The translations under genes and the position numbers were made by a program. A stretch of 8,637 nt of DNA from Actinomycetes bacterium (GTDB taxonomy: Bacteria; Actinomycetota; Thermoleophilia; Solirubrobacterales; Solirubrobacteraceae): the NCBI GenBank assembly GCA_023405705.1, contig JAEXXR010000439.1, forward strand, positions 1-8,637. Direction: 5' to 3'. How positions within the stretch are numbered: the stretch's first letter is position 1; every line of letters starts with the position of its first letter. This document shows, in pieces, positions 13-8,481 of the stretch. The notes under the pieces were generated by a model. That model had not been told where the DNA came from. It ran no database searches and saw nothing but the letters and a program-made list of their open reading frames with translations.

Positions 13-840
13 TCAGCCGCGCTTGCGCAGCAGCAGCGCGGCGAGCAGGATGCCGAGGAACGTGCCGAGGAAGGCCCCGCCGAAGGCGGCGACGCCGGGC
101 CCGCTCGGCAGCAGCGCCGTCCCCGCGATCCGCCCGAGGTCGACGACCTCCTCCTCGGCCGGAGCGGCGGCTCGAGCGCCGTGGGCAGCCGCCGGCGCAC
201 CAGCGGCGCTCGAAGCCGAACCAGCGCCGGCACCAGAGCCGCCCCCCTCCCCAGCCGAGGTGGCCGTCTGCGCAACCGAGCCGGCGGAGTTGCCGCTCCC
301 GCCCGCACCCGAGCCGGCGGAGTTGCCGCTGCCGCTTGAGCCCGAGCCAGCAGCGCCCGCGCCCGAGCCGGCAGCCTCAGCGCCAGCCCCCGGCACGTCG
401 CCGAGCTGCGCCTCCAGCCTCCCCGCGAACTGTCTCAGGAGCCGGTCGGCGACCTCCTTCATCACGCCGCCGCCGAACTGGGCGACGCGGCCGGTGACGG
501 CGAGGTCGGTGGTCAGCGCGACGGCCGTCGTCTCCGGACCGTCGGCGCGCAGCCTGGCGGTGACGGTCGCCTCGACCGTGCCCTGGCCGCGCGCCTCGCG
601 GCCGCCGGCGCGCAGGACGGCGACGTGGGTCGCCTCGTCGGCGGAGACGAGCTCGACTCTGACTCTGTACGCGACCGAGATCGGGCCGACCTTCACCTTC
701 ATCGTCGCTCTGATGCCGTCGTCCTCGACGGCGGTGACGGTGGCGCCGGGCATCGCGGGCGCGACGCGCGCGAGATCGGTCAGCAGCGGCCAGGCTCTGT
801 CGAGCGGAACGCTGAGGGAAAACTCGTTCGCGATTTCCAT
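13..840 (-). CDS. CoxG-like SRPBCC protein with repetitive linker and C-terminal membrane anchor
   Basis: The protein has 275 residues if it starts at the ATG at 840. Residues 1-145 look like a CoxG/SRPBCC domain: an MPGATV stretch near residue 30, alternating beta-strand sequence, then a conserved-looking helix with VTGRVAQFGGGVMKEVADRL. About residues 150-235 form a Gly/Ser/Ala linker containing an 11-residue repeat (SGNSAGS twice). The last 25 residues form one hydrophobic helix (AAFGGAFLGTFLGILLAALL) ending in RKRG, a tail anchor with a cytoplasmic basic end. In known systems CoxG binds CO dehydrogenase-type molybdenum hydroxylases and docks them at the membrane; no such hydroxylase is in this window. 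Here the gene diverges from a Rieske dioxygenase operon. The start at 840 is preferred because the promoter-like TATACT lies six bases before it, suggesting a leaderless message; the in-frame GTG at 855 sits inside that element. Domain call is confident; the partner enzyme is unknown. Confidence 0.85.
   Translation of the reverse strand: MEIANEFSLSVPLDRAWPLLTDLARVAPAMPGATVTAVEDDGIRATMKVKVGPISVAYRVRVELVSADEATHVAVLRAGGREARGQGTVEATVTARLRADGPETTAVALTTDLAVTGRVAQFGGGVMKEVADRLLRQFAGRLEAQLGDVPGAGAEAAGSGAGAAGSGSSGSGNSAGSGAGGSGNSAGSVAQTATSAGEGGGSGAGAGSASSAAGAPAAAHGARAAAPAEEEVVDLGRIAGTALLPSGPGVAAFGGAFLGTFLGILLAALLLRKRG
276..330. repeat. 22-bp direct repeat, 33-bp period, inside coxG-like linker
   Basis: An identical 22-bp unit occurs at 276-297 and 309-330. 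The 33-bp period is a whole number of codons, so it produces an 11-residue repeat (SGNSAGS core) in the Gly/Ser linker of the coxG-like protein. It is probably a local slippage or duplication product in a disordered linker. Confidence 0.85.
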
Positions 841-863
841 GGCAACAGTATACACTCGCCACT
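841..863. promoter_or_regulatory. Divergent promoter with shared -10 core and predicted GntR operator (site A)
   Basis: Only 43 bp separate the two divergent genes. On the minus strand the sequence reads AGTGG, four bases, then TGTATACTGTTGCC, directly followed by the ATG at 840. TATACT (852 to 847) is a good -10 box whose expected start point is the A of that ATG. On the plus strand TATACA (849-854) is a second -10 box, with an expected start near 861. The two boxes share TATA at 849-852. No convincing -35 box is seen in either direction. The 14-mer and the AGTGG at the same distance recur before gntR, so I read this as an operator for the GntR protein that covers both -10 boxes. The arms GGCGAG and GTTGCC around TGTATACT give a weak 20-bp dyad. 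Confidence 0.65.
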
Positions 864-883
864 ATGGGTGAGAAGGGCGAGGC

Positions 884-1195
884 ATGAGCGCGGAGCGGCC
901 GCTTGAGGCCGGCGCCGCGCGCGACGACGCCGCTGCGAGCCGCTCGACCGGTGCGGCTGGCGCGACGAACGGAGCCGTCCTGCGGCTCGGCAACGAGTTC
1001 GGGACGGTCGCCGTGTCGGTCGACGAGCAGGCGAACGGGCCGCGGCTGCGGATCGAGGACCTGCGCAGCGGCCGCGTGATCCACCTCGATCCGCTCGAGG
1101 TGGCGAGCCTGACGTGGCTGACGCACCACCGCCTCGGGCCGTTTCTCGACCCCTCGCAGACCGGTTGGCGCAGCGACGAAGGAGCATGGGAGTGA
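884..1195 (+). CDS. Small dioxygenase-associated protein of unknown function
   Basis: This 103-residue protein has a low-complexity Ala/Arg/Ser N-terminus (about residues 1-30) and a compact C-terminal part: LRLGNEFGTVAVSVDE, then RLRIEDLRSGRVIHLDPLEVASLTW. It resembles, from memory, short actinobacterial proteins encoded next to ring-hydroxylating dioxygenases, some of which are labelled dihydrodiol dehydrogenase. Nothing here supports that label: there is no Rossmann glycine motif and no room for a dehydrogenase fold. A Shine-Dalgarno-like AGAAGG (871-876) lies seven bases before the ATG. Its stop overlaps the next start as GTGA, so it is translationally coupled to the alpha subunit. A role in assembly or activity of the dioxygenase is inferred from position only. 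Confidence 0.75.
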   Translation: MSAERPLEAGAARDDAAASRSTGAAGATNGAVLRLGNEFGTVAVSVDEQANGPRLRIEDLRSGRVIHLDPLEVASLTWLTHHRLGPFLDPSQTGWRSDEGAWE

Positions 1196-2385
1196 GCACG
1201 ACGACGGACCCGGCCGGCCTCATCACCGAGGACTGGCGCATCCACGGCAGCATCTACACGTCGCAGGCGATCTTCGAGGAGGAGCAGCGCAACCTCTTCC
1301 ACGGCCCGTGGCTGTACGTCGCGCACGAGAGCGAGCTGCGGCAGCCCGGCGACTACAAGACGACGTACGCCGGCATCCAGCCGGTGATCGTCTCGCGCGG
1401 CGCCGACGACGGCGAGATCCACGTGATGCTCAACCGCTGCCGCCACCGCGGCGCGACCGTCTGCCAGTCCGAGCGCGGCAACGCGAATTTCTTCCGCTGC
1501 GCGTACCACGGCTGGACCTATAGAAACGACGGCCCGCTGCGCGGCATGACCTACGACGACGCCTATCCCGGCCTCGACCGCACGAAGCTCGGGCTCGTCA
1601 GACTGCCGCGCGTCGCGACCTTCGCCGGCTTCGTCTTCGCCAGCTTCGCGGAGGAGGGGCCGTCGCTGGAGGACCACCTCGGCAACGCCAAGCCCTACCT
1701 GGAGATCATCTCCCAGCAGGGGCCGGAGGGGATCCGCCTCTCCGCCGGCGCGCACAACCTCGCCTATGACGGCAACTGGAAGCTGCAGGTCGAGAACACG
1801 ATCGACAACTACCACTTCGGCTTCGTCCACCGCAGCTTCCTCGACGTGCTCGCCGACCGCATCGGCTCGCCGCCGCCGATCATGCAGAGAATCATGTTCG
1901 ACGAGACGTTCCGCACGATCGACCTCGGCAACGGCCACTCCGTCCACGAGTTCGGCGACCCGAGAACGGGCAACAACGGCGGCCAGCTCGGCGACCTGCC
2001 GTTCAACCTGATCGTCTTCCCGAACCTCTGCTTCGTCGGCGCGCAGCTGCGCCACGTGCTGCCGAAGGCGGCCAACCGCACCGAGGTGCGGCTCTACCCG
2101 ATGCTGCACGAGGGCGCCAGCGACGAGCACAACGCCGCGATCCTGCGCACCCACGAGGGCTTCTACGGCCCGGCCGGGATGGGCGGCCCCGACGACGTCG
2201 AGATCGCCTTCGAGCGCGTCACCGACGGCATGCAGGCGGTCGAGCAGGACTGGCTGGTGATGAGCCGCGGCATGCACCGCGAGAGAGCGGGCGAGAACGG
2301 CATCCTGATCGGCCACTCGGCCGACGAGGTCCCGCAGCGCGCCTTCTACCGCCAGTGGCAGCGCCTGATGGAGGCCGGGGCATGA
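1192..2385 (+). CDS. Rieske non-heme iron ring-hydroxylating oxygenase, alpha subunit
   Basis: This 397-residue protein is the catalytic subunit that, in its family, adds O2 across an aromatic ring or hydroxylates it in the cytoplasm. The Rieske [2Fe-2S] ligands are visible as C83-x-H85, 17 residues, C103-x-x-H106. The mononuclear iron site is D205-x2-H208-x4-H213 (sequence DNYHFGFVH); a GGPDD motif at 334-335 supplies the likely carboxylate ligand, and D205 is the usual bridging Asp between the Rieske and iron centres. Length is typical of the family. The GTG at 1192 is chosen because GAAGGAG (1178-1184) lies seven bases upstream and the start overlaps the previous stop as GTGA; the ATG at 1186 is too close to that ribosome binding site. 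It overlaps the beta subunit gene by 4 bp. The substrate cannot be deduced. No ferredoxin or reductase gene is nearby. Confidence 0.95.
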   Translation: MSTTTDPAGLITEDWRIHGSIYTSQAIFEEEQRNLFHGPWLYVAHESELRQPGDYKTTYAGIQPVIVSRGADDGEIHVMLNRCRHRGATVCQSERGNANFFRCAYHGWTYRNDGPLRGMTYDDAYPGLDRTKLGLVRLPRVATFAGFVFASFAEEGPSLEDHLGNAKPYLEIISQQGPEGIRLSAGAHNLAYDGNWKLQVENTIDNYHFGFVHRSFLDVLADRIGSPPPIMQRIMFDETFRTIDLGNGHSVHEFGDPRTGNNGGQLGDLPFNLIVFPNLCFVGAQLRHVLPKAANRTEVRLYPMLHEGASDEHNAAILRTHEGFYGPAGMGGPDDVEIAFERVTDGMQAVEQDWLVMSRGMHRERAGENGILIGHSADEVPQRAFYRQWQRLMEAGA

Positions 2386-2900
2386 GCGCGCAGGAGACCG
2401 CCCGCGCCGGCTCGCAGGACCCGGCGCTGCTGGCCGACGTCGCCGCCTTCCTCTACCGCGAGGCCGAGCTGCTCGACGGCCTGGAGTACGACGCCTGGCT
2501 GGCGCTCTACGCCGAGGACGCCGTCTACTGGATCCCGCAGGGGCCGGAGGCCGACCCGCGCGTCGACGTCCAGCTGCTGCTCGACGACCGCAACCGCATG
2601 CGCGAGCGCGTGCTGCGGCTCGCGAGCGGCTTCGCCTACTCGCAGGACCCCGCGTCGCGCACGATCCACCTGGTCGGCAACGTGCGGATCGCGAGCGGGG
2701 GAGAGGTCGCGCCGCCGGCGCTCGACGTCCGCTCCGTGCAGCAGGTGACCGAGGTCCGCCGCGGCCGCCAGCTCCAGTACGCAGGCCACTTCCGTCACGT
2801 GCTCGTTCCCGGCGAGGACGGCGGCTGGCTGATCTCCCGCAAGGAGGTCCGCCTCGCCAACAGCGACCTCCCGCTCGGCAACGTCACGTTCCTGATCTGA
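2382..2900 (+). CDS. Ring-hydroxylating dioxygenase, beta subunit
   Basis: The 172-residue product has the features of the small, NTF2/SnoaL-like beta subunit that forms an alpha3beta3 oxygenase: an early helix with FLYREAELLDGLEYDAW, followed by LYAEDAVYWIP, a central DDRNRMRERVLRL region, and a C-terminal sheet ending DLPLGNVTFLI. The REA-LLD-x-W-x-x-Y pattern is characteristic of the BenB/AntB-like family, but specificity is not set by this subunit alone. The start ATG overlaps the alpha-subunit stop (ATGA), and TGGAGG (2369-2374) lies seven bases before it. It is the last gene of the operon that begins at 884; a GC-rich inverted repeat follows within 15 bp of the stop. Confidence 0.93.
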   Translation: MSAQETARAGSQDPALLADVAAFLYREAELLDGLEYDAWLALYAEDAVYWIPQGPEADPRVDVQLLLDDRNRMRERVLRLASGFAYSQDPASRTIHLVGNVRIASGGEVAPPALDVRSVQQVTEVRRGRQLQYAGHFRHVLVPGEDGGWLISRKEVRLANSDLPLGNVTFLI

Positions 2901-2912
2901 GTGGGGTGCTCC

Positions 2913-2951
2913 GGCGGGCCGGCCGGGCGCCCCGCTCGGCCCCGGCCCGCC
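2913..2951 (+). terminator. Strong GC inverted repeat after dioxygenase operon, possible terminator
   Basis: GGCGGGCCGG (2913-2922) is the exact reverse complement of CCGGCCCGCC (2942-2951), giving a 10-bp perfect GC stem with a 19-base loop that itself contains the palindrome GGGCGCCC. It begins 13 bases after the beta-subunit stop. There is no T-run, so it is not a classic intrinsic terminator, but hairpins without T-runs are often proposed as terminators or mRNA 3' ends in high-GC actinobacteria. Any sequence this GC-rich folds readily, so confidence is moderate. Confidence 0.45.
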
Positions 2952-2973
2952 TGCCCGGCGCGGCGATCCGCCC

Positions 2974-3004
2974 GGCCGGGCGTCGTGCGGGCGGGCCGGG
3001 CGTC
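2974..3004. repeat. 11-bp direct repeats GGCCGGGCGTC in intergenic gap
   Basis: GGCCGGGCGTC occurs at 2974-2984 and again at 2994-3004, a 20-bp period; its first nine bases also occur at 2921-2929. The repeats sit between the dioxygenase operon and the gntR promoter. Composition here is close to pure G and C, so the repeats may only reflect low complexity. Confidence 0.5.
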
Positions 3005-3055
3005 TGCGTGGGCGCGAGCAGCCGCCGTGGCTAGCGTCATTCGTCGCTTTCTAGG

Positions 3056-3078
3056 AGTGGAACCTGTATACTGTTGCC
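3056..3078 (+). promoter_or_regulatory. gntR promoter and predicted autoregulatory operator (site B)
   Basis: AGTGG (3056-3060), four bases, then TGTATACTGTTGCC (3065-3078) directly precedes the GTG start at 3079. The 14-mer and the AGTGG spacing are identical to site A on the minus strand before the coxG-like gene. TATACT (3067-3072) is a good -10 box; with six bases between it and the start codon, transcription is expected to begin at the GTG itself, making the message leaderless. No Shine-Dalgarno sequence fits the usual window. GGAAC before and GTTGCC after the core form a weak dyad. The GT-AT-AC core suits the GT(n)AC operator pattern of FadR-type GntR regulators, which argues for autoregulation. 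Confidence 0.7.
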
Positions 3079-3789
3079 GTGCGTGAGACGGATCTGAGCT
3101 CGATCAAGCCGCAGGCGCAGTTCAACGAGCGGCGCATCACGGCCGACTACGTCGCAGACGCGCTGCGGGACGCGATCCACCGCGGCGAGCTGGCCGACGG
3201 CGCCACGCTCAACCAGGCGGCGATCGCGACCCACTTCGGCGTCTCCCGCGTCCCTGTGCGCGAGGCGATGCGCCAGCTGCAGGCCGAGGGCCTGATCGAC
3301 ACGAGAGCCCACCGCCTCGCGGTCGTGCGCGCGCTCGACCTGGAGCGGATCGCCGAGATCTACGACCTGCGCGCGATGCTCGAGGGCTTCGTGATCGAGC
3401 GCGCCGTCCCGAACCTCTCCGTCGCCGACCTCGCCGCCGCCGCCAGGCTCGCGCGCAGGATGGACGACGAGTCCGACCACGCGCGCTGGCTGGAGCTGAA
3501 CGCCGCCTTCCACGCGCTCCTCTACGCGCCCTCCGGCGCGGAGACGACGCTGGAGCTGATCGAGCAGCTGCGCGCGAGAGGCGAGCGCTACGTGCGCCTG
3601 TGGTCGCGCGGCTCCGGCATCCACCGCCCGGCCGAGGCCGGCGTCGAGCATGCCGAGATCCTGCGCCTCGTCGAGGCCGGCGACGGCCCCGCCGCCCGCC
3701 GCGCGATCGAGCTGCACATCGGCCACACGCGCGAGCGCCTCGTCGCCCAGCACGAGGCCGCCACGGCCGCCGCCGTCCCCGCGGTGTAG
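3079..3789 (+). CDS. GntR-family transcriptional regulator, FadR/FCD subfamily
   Basis: The 236-residue protein has an N-terminal winged helix-turn-helix (about residues 20-85) with the GntR signature: GELADGATLNQAAIATHFGVSRVPVREAM, then RQLQAEGLID. The rest is an all-helical FCD ligand-binding domain. Candidate metal/ligand histidines are H145 (NAAFH), H191 (EHAEIL) and H213 (ELHIGH, with H216 near); the position four before H145 is Asn where many members have Asp. Such proteins are usually repressors released by an organic acid or pathway intermediate. The gene stands alone between two operons and carries the predicted operator directly before its GTG start, as do the two operons, so it is the obvious candidate regulator of the whole locus. 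No later start fits better. Family call is firm; effector and target set are inferred. Confidence 0.93.
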   Translation: MRETDLSSIKPQAQFNERRITADYVADALRDAIHRGELADGATLNQAAIATHFGVSRVPVREAMRQLQAEGLIDTRAHRLAVVRALDLERIAEIYDLRAMLEGFVIERAVPNLSVADLAAAARLARRMDDESDHARWLELNAAFHALLYAPSGAETTLELIEQLRARGERYVRLWSRGSGIHRPAEAGVEHAEILRLVEAGDGPAARRAIELHIGHTRERLVAQHEAATAAAVPAV

Positions 3790-3851
3790 CTCCGCAGCGA
3801 GCGCTCCCGCCCGGCACGCCCCCGCCGCGCCCACCCCGCGATGCCATGCAG

Positions 3852-3876
3852 TTTCAGGTCGCTCAGCGACCCGAAA
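3852..3876. terminator. Hairpin downstream of gntR, possible terminator or regulatory stem
   Basis: TTTC-A-GGTCGC, loop TCA, GCGACC-C-GAAA folds into an 11-position stem with one A-C mismatch and a three-base loop. It lies 63 bases after the gntR stop and about 110 bases before the next promoter. No T-run follows on the plus strand, and on the minus strand it is followed by mixed sequence. A terminator for gntR is the simplest reading; a protein binding site is possible because the dyad is nearly perfect at the DNA level too. Confidence 0.45.
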
Positions 3877-3986
3877 TCGCGCCTCATGCGTGTGCGGTCA
3901 CGAGGGATGTGGTGGAAAGCACCTTTCGTACGGTGGGCGGCGGGTGCAGGCGCCGCGCCGCGTCGTCGCCCTCCCCAGCGGCCTCC

Positions 3987-4020
3987 TTGCACTGACCAAC
4001 AGTTGTGTATACAGTTGTCA
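3987..4020 (+). promoter_or_regulatory. Promoter and predicted GntR operator of second operon (site C)
   Basis: TGTATACAGTTGTC (4006-4019) matches the site A/B 14-mer at 12 of 14 positions; the core TGTATACA is a perfect 8-bp palindrome. TATACA (4008-4013) is a -10 box; TTGCAC (3987-3992) is a plausible -35 box but the spacer is a short 15 bp. The element is richer than A and B: ACAGTTGT occurs twice (3999-4006 and 4011-4018, 12-bp period), CAACAGTTG (3997-4005) is a dyad, and TGACCAAC (3993-4000) with GTTGTCA (4014-4020) forms a wider inverted repeat with one unpaired base. Transcription would start near 4020, leaving an 80-base leader before the first gene. Confidence 0.65.
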
Positions 4021-4029
4021 GTAGCTTCT

Positions 4030-4104
4030 ATGCACCTGGCAGTGAGCGGTCCGCACGTACGCGGCGCTCGAGGCAACTCGGAGAGAAGAGAACCGGCAAG
4101 ATGA
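4030..4104 (+). other. Possible 24-codon upstream ORF overlapping the next start (ATGA)
   Basis: An ATG at 4030, about ten bases after the predicted transcription start, opens a 24-codon frame (MHLAVSGPHVRG...) whose TGA overlaps the ATG of the next gene as ATGA. It would couple translation of the leader to the amino-acid-synthesis family gene. There is no Shine-Dalgarno sequence before it and the codon use is not typical, so it may be chance: every ATGA junction supplies a stop in this frame. Confidence 0.25.
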
Positions 4105-4679
4105 CTCCCCTCACCGTCCGCAAGTGGGTCACGTTCGCGGAGGAGATCTCAAGCGACGGCGGCCCCGCAGCCGAGGAGCCGCTCGTCAAGGCGGCCGTCG
4201 CGGCGGTCATCAAGAACCCGTACGCCGGCCGCTGGTCGGAGAACCTCGACGAGCTGATCGAGCCGAGCGTCCCGCTCGCCCGCGAGCTGGTCGCACGCTG
4301 CCACGCCGCGCTCGGCGGCCGTCAGGCGGAGAGCTGCGGCAAGGGCGCGATCGTCGGCACGCTCGGCGACCAGGACCACGGCGTCGCGTGCATCACGACC
4401 CCGTTCGGCGACGCGATGCGGGCGGAGATCGACGGCATCACATGGGTCACCTCGACCTCGAAGGTCGCCGGCCCGGGCGCCTCGATCGACATCCCGCTCG
4501 CCTACCGCCGCGCCCTCTTCGTGCGCGAGTTCTACGACACGGTCACGCTGACCGTGCCGGACGGCCCGAGACCGGACGAGATCCTCGTGATCGCCGCGAT
4601 GGCGTCGCGCGGCCGCGTCCACCACCGCGTCGGCGGCCTCGCCAGAGACGAGGTCAGCGTCGGGGACGGCCTGCGATGA
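4101..4679 (+). CDS. Amino-acid-synthesis family protein (PF06684-like), function unknown
   Basis: The product has 192 residues, usual for the family. Recognisable segments are VRKWVTFAEE at the N-terminus, AAVIKNPYAGRW near residue 35, GKGAIVGTLGDQDHGVACI in the middle and SKVAGPGASIDIPLAYR, all hallmarks of the small proteins annotated as amino acid synthesis family. That name rests on old genetic association; no reaction is established that I can cite. The start at 4101 is chosen because GAAGAG (4085-4090) lies ten bases upstream; a longer frame from a GTG at 4005 would begin inside the promoter element. The stop overlaps the next start (ATGA). As first gene of a catabolic operon under the same predicted operator as a Rieske oxygenase, it may process a pathway intermediate, but this is inference. 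Confidence 0.85.
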   Translation: MTPLTVRKWVTFAEEISSDGGPAAEEPLVKAAVAAVIKNPYAGRWSENLDELIEPSVPLARELVARCHAALGGRQAESCGKGAIVGTLGDQDHGVACITTPFGDAMRAEIDGITWVTSTSKVAGPGASIDIPLAYRRALFVREFYDTVTLTVPDGPRPDEILVIAAMASRGRVHHRVGGLARDEVSVGDGLR

Positions 4680-7590: not shown

Positions 7591-8481
7591 ATGAGCGGTG
7601 TCGGGAGCGCCACCAGCGAGACGGCGGCGCGCCTGGGCCGGCTGGCGGGCGTCACCGTCGCCGTGCCCGACCCGCAGGCGACCGCCGGCTTCCTCACCGC
7701 GGGGATCGGCTTCCCGCTCGCCGAGACGGCCGGCGACGCGATCGCGATCGGCTGCGCCGGCGACTACGGGCCGCACGGCCAGACGGCGATCACGCTCGTC
7801 GAGGGCGGCGCTCTGGAGCTGCGCGCCGTGACCTGGGAGGTCTCCGACGCCTACGACCTCGACGCCCTCGCCGGGCGCCTCGACGCGGCCGGGACGCCGG
7901 CGACCGAGACCGCCGCCGGAGGGCTCGCGTTCGCCGATCCGGCGGGCAACCCGCTCGCCGTCGAGCGCTCCTCCGCGCTGCTCGTGCCGACCCCCGAGGT
8001 CACGCTGACCGGCCCGCGCCGGCTCGGCCACCTCAACCTCAAGACGCCGGCTCCGGCCGAGACCGCCGCCTTCTACCGCGAGGCGCTCGCGCTTCTGCTC
8101 TCCGAGCAGATCGGCGACAACCTCTGGTTCCTGCGGATCGCCTCCGAGCACCACAACCTCGGGCTGCGCCCGGGCGGCCGCGGCGAGCTGCACCACCTCG
8201 GCCTCGAGGTCAACGGCTGGCACGCCTACGAGCCGATCCTCGACCGTCTCGCGGCGCAGGAGCTGAAGGTCGAGTACGGCCCGGGCCGCCACGGGCCGGG
8301 ACGCAACATTTTCACGTACGTCTGCGATCCGTCATCCGGTCTGCGCGTCGAGCTGTTCGCCGACATGGCGCAGATCCCCGACGCCACGACCCACGTCCCG
8401 GTCCGCTGGGAGGCCGGCGACCGCATGACGAAGACGATCAACCGGTGGGGGCCGACCCCGCCCGAGAGCTTCCTCGCATGA
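7591..8481 (+). CDS. Two-domain VOC-family extradiol-type dioxygenase
   Basis: The 296-residue protein (from ATG 7591) has two vicinal-oxygen-chelate domains. The N-terminal one (about residues 12-125) lacks metal ligands, as in type I extradiol dioxygenases. The C-terminal one has the full set: H147 (RLGHLNL), H202 (ELHHLGLEV) and E254 (LRVELF) for Fe(II) or Mn(II), plus H234 and Y243 spaced nine apart, matching the BphC acid-base His and Tyr, within FTYVCDPSSG. It should cleave a catechol-like ring next to the hydroxyls, the step after dihydroxylation and dehydrogenation. The start is uncertain: no ribosome binding site precedes 7591, while a GTG at 7483 overlaps the previous stop as GTGA and would add 36 residues, but the added codons are quite unlike the rest. 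The stop overlaps the SDR gene by 4 bp. Confidence 0.85.
   Translation: MSGVGSATSETAARLGRLAGVTVAVPDPQATAGFLTAGIGFPLAETAGDAIAIGCAGDYGPHGQTAITLVEGGALELRAVTWEVSDAYDLDALAGRLDAAGTPATETAAGGLAFADPAGNPLAVERSSALLVPTPEVTLTGPRRLGHLNLKTPAPAETAAFYREALALLLSEQIGDNLWFLRIASEHHNLGLRPGGRGELHHLGLEVNGWHAYEPILDRLAAQELKVEYGPGRHGPGRNIFTYVCDPSSGLRVELFADMAQIPDATTHVPVRWEAGDRMTKTINRWGPTPPESFLA

Follow-up and report, generated by a model that had tools for sequence, protein, structure and literature searches.

A GTATAC-centred palindrome as the predicted operator of an FCD-type GntR repressor at a dioxygenase locus of a Solirubrobacteraceae bacterium

What reads the GTATAC-centred element that stands at all three promoter regions of one small actinobacterial locus? 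We analyzed a stretch of 8,637 nucleotides, here called the window, on contig JAEXXR010000439.1 of an Actinomycetes bacterium of the family Solirubrobacteraceae (assembly GCA_023405705.1). It carries a coxG-like gene, a dioxygenase operon, the gene of a GntR-family regulator (GntR1) and a second operon. A first-pass annotation had proposed that GntR1 controls itself and its neighbours from these elements by masking their -10 boxes. We conclude that the three elements are very probably operators of this FCD-type (VanR-group) GntR repressor. The palindromic form of the site, its placement at promoters, its conservation, its restriction to one gene cluster in close relatives and the matching recognition helices of two regulators all argue for this at the sequence level, and from them we infer binding and repression.

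Three elements and the form of the predicted operator

Two identical elements, TGTATACTGTTGCC, lie upstream of coxG (854-841, minus strand) and of gntR1 (3065-3078, plus strand), and a 12/14 match, TGTATACAGTTGTC, lies at 4006-4019 before the second operon. A pattern search of the window thus found all three where the first-pass annotation had placed them. With up to two mismatches TGTATACWGTTGYC occurs three times in the window compared with 0.01 expected, a number reached in none of 200 dinucleotide shuffles. The hexamer GTATAC starts solely at 848, 3066 and 4007 (0.07 expected), which bears out the earlier statement that it is found nowhere else in the window. Elements 1 and 2 directly abut the start codons of coxG (ATG, 840, minus strand) and gntR1 (GTG, 3079), a feature that had gone unmentioned. 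The centre of element 1 is 33.5 bases from the start of a divergent small open reading frame (ORF) at 884, and that of element 3 is 91.5 bases upstream of an AA_synth gene.

To describe the full operator we selected sites by their core only, i.e., all 38 GTATAC occurrences in the cluster stretches taken from Conexibacter arvalis, Conexibacter sp. CPCC 205762 and the genomes G028, G105 and G076. Both arms showed the same half-site, ACAGTTGNC, reading outward in symmetry, and therefore the operator, as judged from these aligned sites, is a palindrome of about 20 bp, approximately GRCAACTGTATACAGTTGYC. The element first noted corresponds to its core plus the right arm, GTTGCC. Operators of the FadR subfamily are palindromes with a GT-N2/3-AC core and TKGT/ACMA boxes, and GT-N2-AC is a documented spacing type among them (PMC4494728, in its available text). 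The GT-AT-AC core and the symmetric arms of the 38 sites agree with this form, so that the suggestion of a FadR-type GntR operator is supported; the outermost T/A of the TKGT/ACMA boxes is C/G here (CTGT/ACAG). In the window, the predicted operators are:

841..860: operator O1 (predicted), GGCAACAGTATACACTCGCC, within the 43 bp that separate coxG from the divergent ORF884-dioxygenase operon, ending at the coxG ATG
3059..3078: operator O2 (predicted), GGAACCTGTATACTGTTGCC, ending at the gntR1 GTG
4000..4019: operator O3 (predicted), CAGTTGTGTATACAGTTGTC, whose right half matches well and left half poorly

The motif AGTGG, described earlier as lying exactly four bases upstream of the element, was indeed seen at sites 1 and 2. 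We rejected it as a separate element because it is not conserved, being absent before coxG of C. arvalis and before gntR of CPCC 205762. Its GG falls on the outermost bases of the longer palindrome's left arm (GRCRAC).

Distribution of the predicted operator in relatives

Genome-wide counts were obtained from relatives, not from the window's own strain. Eleven loci with gntR relatives were taken from species genomes, i.e., C. arvalis (90% identity), CPCC 205762 (76%) and others down to 27%; outside the window, genes were taken to start where a simple gene caller, and not an annotation, placed them. All three elements are present at orthologous places in C. arvalis and CPCC 205762, where O1, O2 and O3 are each kept (loci L001 and L002) and no further GTATAC was found in either locus. 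The proposal that the element would be conserved beside orthologues hence held in two other Conexibacter genomes. Exact GTATAC was found upstream of nine of 16 gntR homologues (37-90% identity), a one-base variant upstream of two more and neither upstream of the remaining five. In more distant genomes, sites still precede gntR genes with 37-57% identity; the four most distant gntR matches (L008-L011, 27-43%) had no upstream site in any case.

In the two closest genomes, near-matches are concentrated around the same gene cluster. With up to one mismatch, all seven matches of TGTATACWGTTG in C. arvalis (5.2 Mb) fell within 35 kb (C1:1477670-1512341), with one match for the reversed control. CPCC 205762 had ten matches, two of them overlapping, compared with two for the reversed control; nine lay in a 34-kb stretch of a single contig, and the last one adjoined gntR2, the gene of a paralogous regulator. 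The 20-mer GRCRACTGTATACAGTYGYC with up to three mismatches gave eight matches in C. arvalis, seven in CPCC 205762, six in G028 (all on the gntR contig), one each in G089 and G114 and none in G093; the reversed control gave none in all six genomes. In close relatives, the motif is hence not frequent at unrelated promoters; such frequency had been named in the first-pass annotation as a possible refutation.

All eight 20-mer matches of C. arvalis were found in the cluster or before related genes, three of them outside the cluster. The first of these has its centre 13.5 bases upstream of a gene for a FAD oxidase, whose 57% identical counterpart (best match both ways as seen here) has its own site in the CPCC 205762 cluster. 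The second precedes an operon of SDR (37%), Rieske dioxygenase (39%) and reductase (60%) genes, and the third an ABC importer operon that is a paralogue of the cluster's (65% for the ATPase). Within 60 kb of C. arvalis, eight 20-mers had at most four mismatches and none had five, whereas the reversed sequence gave none below six. Counting as a site up to four mismatches to the 20-mer, or GTATAC, eight of 13 co-directional or divergent gaps of at least 45 bp in the C. arvalis cluster contained a site, compared with none of four convergent gaps. In 235 kb of cluster DNA (C. arvalis, two contigs of CPCC 205762, G028 and G105), GTATAC was non-coding in 29/32 cases, and 23 other palindromic hexamers with two G/C were non-coding in 34/255; the non-coding share of this DNA is 10.5%, a figure that includes the first 20 bases of each gene.

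Among 151 genomes of the order, gntR (E ≤1e-30) was found in seven. Sixteen of the 25 places with the exact 12-mer TGTATACWGTYG are in five of these seven genomes, with two for the reversed control in all seven, and on the gntR contig lie 6/6 of the places in G028 and 2/2 in G105. Order-wide, this concentration in gntR-bearing genomes is the sole support, and the total count is not.

Several observations weigh against assigning these sites to GntR1. The exact 12-mer occurs at its 25 places in 11 of the 151 genomes with no overall excess over the 22 places of the reversed control. Four more distant genomes with gntR homologues likewise showed no excess of the 12-mer at up to one mismatch over the reversed control, with counts of 3 versus 17 in Streptosporangium, 2 versus 9 in Nonomuraea, 3 versus 4 in an Eremiobacterota metagenome-assembled genome and 8 versus 6 in Cryobacterium. 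Two of the seven gntR-bearing genomes (G093, G106) lack the exact motif, and six genomes have it without a close gntR (best 30-39% or none): G076 at four places and five others at one each. A site before the own gntR gene was missing in L013, L016, L020 and L021 and degenerate in L003, one 20-mer match of CPCC 205762 (contig C42) lies inside a gene, and O3 has five mismatches to the palindrome with its poor left half. Moreover, orthologous sites are not independent, the cluster stretches had been chosen for carrying gntR or the motif, and the reader of the sites may be GntR1 or GntR2. The C42 match is probably a chance occurrence, as the five single-place genomes, which are at the level of the reversed control, may be. 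In G076, contig C286 stops inside the dioxygenase alpha gene (78.6% identity), and the gene order of G028 continues there with the beta gene and gntR1, which suggests an assembly gap just before the expected gntR1.

Promoter placement and the candidate regulators of the sites

The following promoter boxes were assigned in the window:

847..852, minus strand: putative -10 box of coxG, TATACT, six bases before the ATG, leaderless type, with equal spacing in C. arvalis and CPCC 205762
3067..3072, plus strand: putative -10 box of gntR1, TATACT, six bases before the GTG, leaderless type, with equal spacing in C. arvalis and CPCC 205762
3987..3992, plus strand: possible -35 box of the second operon, TTGCAC, 17 bases before TACAGT
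4010..4015, plus strand: possible -10 box of the second operon, TACAGT, inside O3

Leaderless bacterial genes have a TANNNT signal about 12 bp upstream of the start codon (PMC3160421, in its available text), and TATACT begins 12 bp before the ATG or GTG at O1 and O2. Judged by this layout, coxG and gntR1 are apparently leaderless genes. The layout recurs in relatives: where a T follows the core (TATACT), ATG or GTG is found exactly six bases on in 8/13 cases versus 2/64 otherwise (Fisher 2.4e-6, with orthologous sites not independent). Most sites other than the TATACT type retain the palindrome's A after the core. At the second operon, C. arvalis has TTGCGC (L023) where the window has TTGCAC, nothing resembling TTGCAC was found at that place in CPCC 205762 (L025), and a consensus promoter scan of 2890-4120 found no promoter.

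The TANNNT signal (PMC3160421), which sites 1 and 2 fit with TATACT six bases before the start, would also suit a simpler explanation, namely that the element is a core-promoter signal only, which supplies leaderless genes with their -10 box (TATACT-N6-ATG), and that no regulator is involved. We consider this very improbable, as near-matches in C. arvalis are restricted to one gene set and both arms of the site are the same half-site. Also, the ABC1 operon of both Conexibacter genomes has separate TTGACA and TATCGT boxes (17-18 bases apart) upstream of the palindrome, which lies over the presumed start site. A generic leaderless -10 box was rejected because it has few places and those outside the regulon do not have the GTTGYC arm: TATAMT-N6/7-ATG occurs at ten places in three genomes compared with two for the reversed control (N16/17, four versus five), and three of the ten are regulon sites, whereas the other seven have no GTTGYC after the box.

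The predicted masking of -10 boxes by a repressor was retained in part. It fits coxG, gntR1 and possibly site 3, but not one ABC promoter, where a separate -10-like box precedes the site. Some GntR-family proteins act as activators, reportedly including a mycobacterial one. That GntR1 would activate from these sites is hardly probable at all, since the palindrome overlaps the -10 box, the start site or the start codon, a position suiting a repressor, and Atu1419, the closest relative that has been studied, is a repressor with its operator so placed (PMC7797058, in its available text).

The candidate reader of the sites is encoded in the middle of the locus:

3079..3789, plus strand: gntR1, GntR winged helix-turn-helix (PF00392) and FCD domain (PF07729), predicted to repress its own gene and to read the sites

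GntR1 scored 54.7 bits for PF00392 (Pfam cut-off 27) and 79 bits for PF07729 (cut-off 24.3). The VanR group is distinguished by six instead of seven C-terminal helices (PMC7797058), and in the GntR1 model six helices are predicted between residues 88 and 232 (mean pLDDT 83.4), in agreement with this group. N141, H145, H191 and H213 of GntR1 match the Asn/His/His/His pattern of the Atu1419 metal site (Asn137, His141, His192, His214; PMC7797058), with equal N-to-H and H-to-H spacings of 4 and 22. Among 16 proteins, the three histidines are invariant and N141 is nearly so. By residue pattern GntR1 hence fits the metal-binding FCD regulators, with metal binding putative. V55, S56, R57, V58, P59 and R61 are invariant in the same 16 proteins, which include GntR2. 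Arg45 of Atu1419 contacts a G of its GTATAC palindrome (PMC7797058), and R57 should be its counterpart, as taken from the family pattern rather than from an alignment. The folds closest to the GntR1 model were 3c7j, PmiR and Atu1419 with DNA.

GntR2 is 57% identical to GntR1. In the C. arvalis cluster its gene (L022:14912-15613) stands beside UbiD and molybdenum hydroxylase (Mo-hydroxylase) genes and has its own site centred 60.5 bases upstream. The recognition-helix stretch SRVPVREA is identical in both proteins, and GntR2 may thus bind these sites too. These points, and the lack of a site before gntR1 of G028, would also fit sites that belong mainly to GntR2 or another cluster regulator, with a different or minor role for GntR1. 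We regard this as improbable: G028 has 11 sites in 60 kb and one gntR (E ≤1e-30), 69% identical to GntR1, and a site precedes gntR1 in C. arvalis, CPCC 205762 and the window. Regulator pairs recur elsewhere in the order, as G089 and G114 each have two gntR1-like genes about 4 kb apart (L014, L015, L020, L021). In Cryobacterium (G006), several GTATAC occur at L029:11176-18327, on a contig with a 60% identical gntR homologue.

Predicted regulon and related systems

In the mechanism that we propose for GntR1, a dimer would read the palindrome of about 20 bp, with Arg57 of the two recognition helices placed at the G of either GT. In the absence of an effector, this dimer would keep gntR1 itself, coxG, the AA_synth operon and the divergent ORF884/dioxygenase operon repressed. 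At coxG and gntR1, the right half of the palindrome would span the -10 box and reach the start codon of a leaderless transcript, and at other promoters the site would overlap the -10 box or the start site. The repressor would let go of the DNA once its FCD domain had bound a catabolite that is a small acid or chelates metal. In close relatives, the same operator would serve a larger regulon with Mo-hydroxylase, UbiD, more dioxygenases, ABC transporters, a chemoreceptor and the FAD oxidase, and it would perhaps also be read by GntR2. The regulon under a central GntR that had been predicted is thus supported by sites at all three promoters, but it extends beyond the window and is only in part local. 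The predicted targets and their neighbours in the window are:

13..840, minus strand: coxG-like gene (PF06240), predicted target
884..1195, plus strand: small conserved ORF of 103 amino acids, first gene of the dioxygenase operon
1192..2385, plus strand: Rieske ring-hydroxylating oxygenase alpha subunit, predicted target
2382..2900, plus strand: ring-hydroxylating oxygenase beta subunit, predicted target
4101..4679, plus strand: AA_synth family gene (PF06684), first of the second operon

A Pfam scan gave no match for the 103-residue product, and six related loci keep its ORF immediately upstream of the dioxygenase alpha gene (61-92% identity). In the second operon, gene starts were called through 7591-8481, followed by a gene running off the window that is an SDR according to its C. 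arvalis orthologue. Behind site 3, the leader contains a short ORF (4030-4104, 24 codons by eye) with a stop codon overlapping the AA_synth ATG. In the coxG-like protein, the CoxG domain is followed by a long stretch rich in Ala, Gly and Ser and by a hydrophobic C-terminus (13-500), as if the protein were membrane-tethered. Around the C. arvalis sites, we found genes for UbiD, a UbiX-like flavoprotein, Mo-hydroxylase with CoxG, Rieske dioxygenases, ferredoxin, reductase, SDRs, aldehyde dehydrogenases, a TPP enzyme, two ABC importers, an MFS transporter, MCP and XdhC, with two of the proteins scanned in their CPCC 205762 version. Dioxygenase scores were far below the NCBIfam equivalog cut-offs; therefore no substrate was assigned from them or from the enzyme list.

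The nearest known case is Atu1419 of Agrobacterium fabrum, of the VanR group of FCD GntR regulators. As described in the available text of PMC7797058, its operator, ATGTATACAT, is a GTATAC-centred palindrome over -10 boxes, and Atu1419 acts as repressor of its own gene as well as of genes for an aromatic (hydroxycinnamic acid) pathway, comparable to what is predicted here. Both proteins have a six-helix FCD domain, in GntR1 by model, with Asn/His/His/His metal-site residues (PMC7797058). Although Atu1419 is among the best fold matches of GntR1, the two share only about 24% identity in structural alignments. Moreover, its described operator is a 10-bp palindrome, whereas the flanking arms here are conserved to about 20 bp, and it is described for three genes compared with about ten promoters in C. 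arvalis. The available description of Atu1419 mentions no leaderless layout (PMC7797058). FadR-subfamily GT-N2-AC operators have the same two-base gap between GT and AC (PMC4494728). The best sequence match among solved structures (1.6e-28), and the top fold match, is PDB 3c7j, a GntR-family regulator of Pseudomonas syringae with SRMPVREA in its recognition helix where GntR1 has SRVPVREA. FadR-subfamily regulators with GT-N2-AC operators serve different pathways. A literature search found nothing on a GntR regulator with TTGTATACAA, and among the matches listed for GntR operators with TGTATACA or GTATAC, for Conexibacter and for catabolic dioxygenase clusters, no title or abstract start dealt with this regulon.

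The control at this locus would be of an ordinary kind in an unusually clear layout, with operator and leaderless promoter neatly fused and possibly with a code common to two paralogues. As a tentative extension, which we hold to be rather doubtful, one 20-bp operator at about ten promoters would serve a pair of paralogous FCD repressors whose recognition-helix stretches are identical and whose effector domains have diverged. If so, the switch for the Mo-hydroxylase/UbiD/Rieske-dioxygenase set would integrate two metabolites. Leaderless genes would then combine operator, -10 box, transcript start and start codon in one block, in which a change from TATACA to TATACT would also alter the promoter.

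Conexibacter belongs to the class Thermoleophilia. For this little-studied group, the analysis supplies a predicted operator and about ten promoters of a degradation-type pathway. The sites also point to distant genes, i.e., the FAD oxidase, a third dioxygenase operon and a second-copy ABC importer, as likely members of the same pathway. Finally, the fused layout of operator, -10 box and start codon would illustrate how a repressor site can fit leaderless genes.

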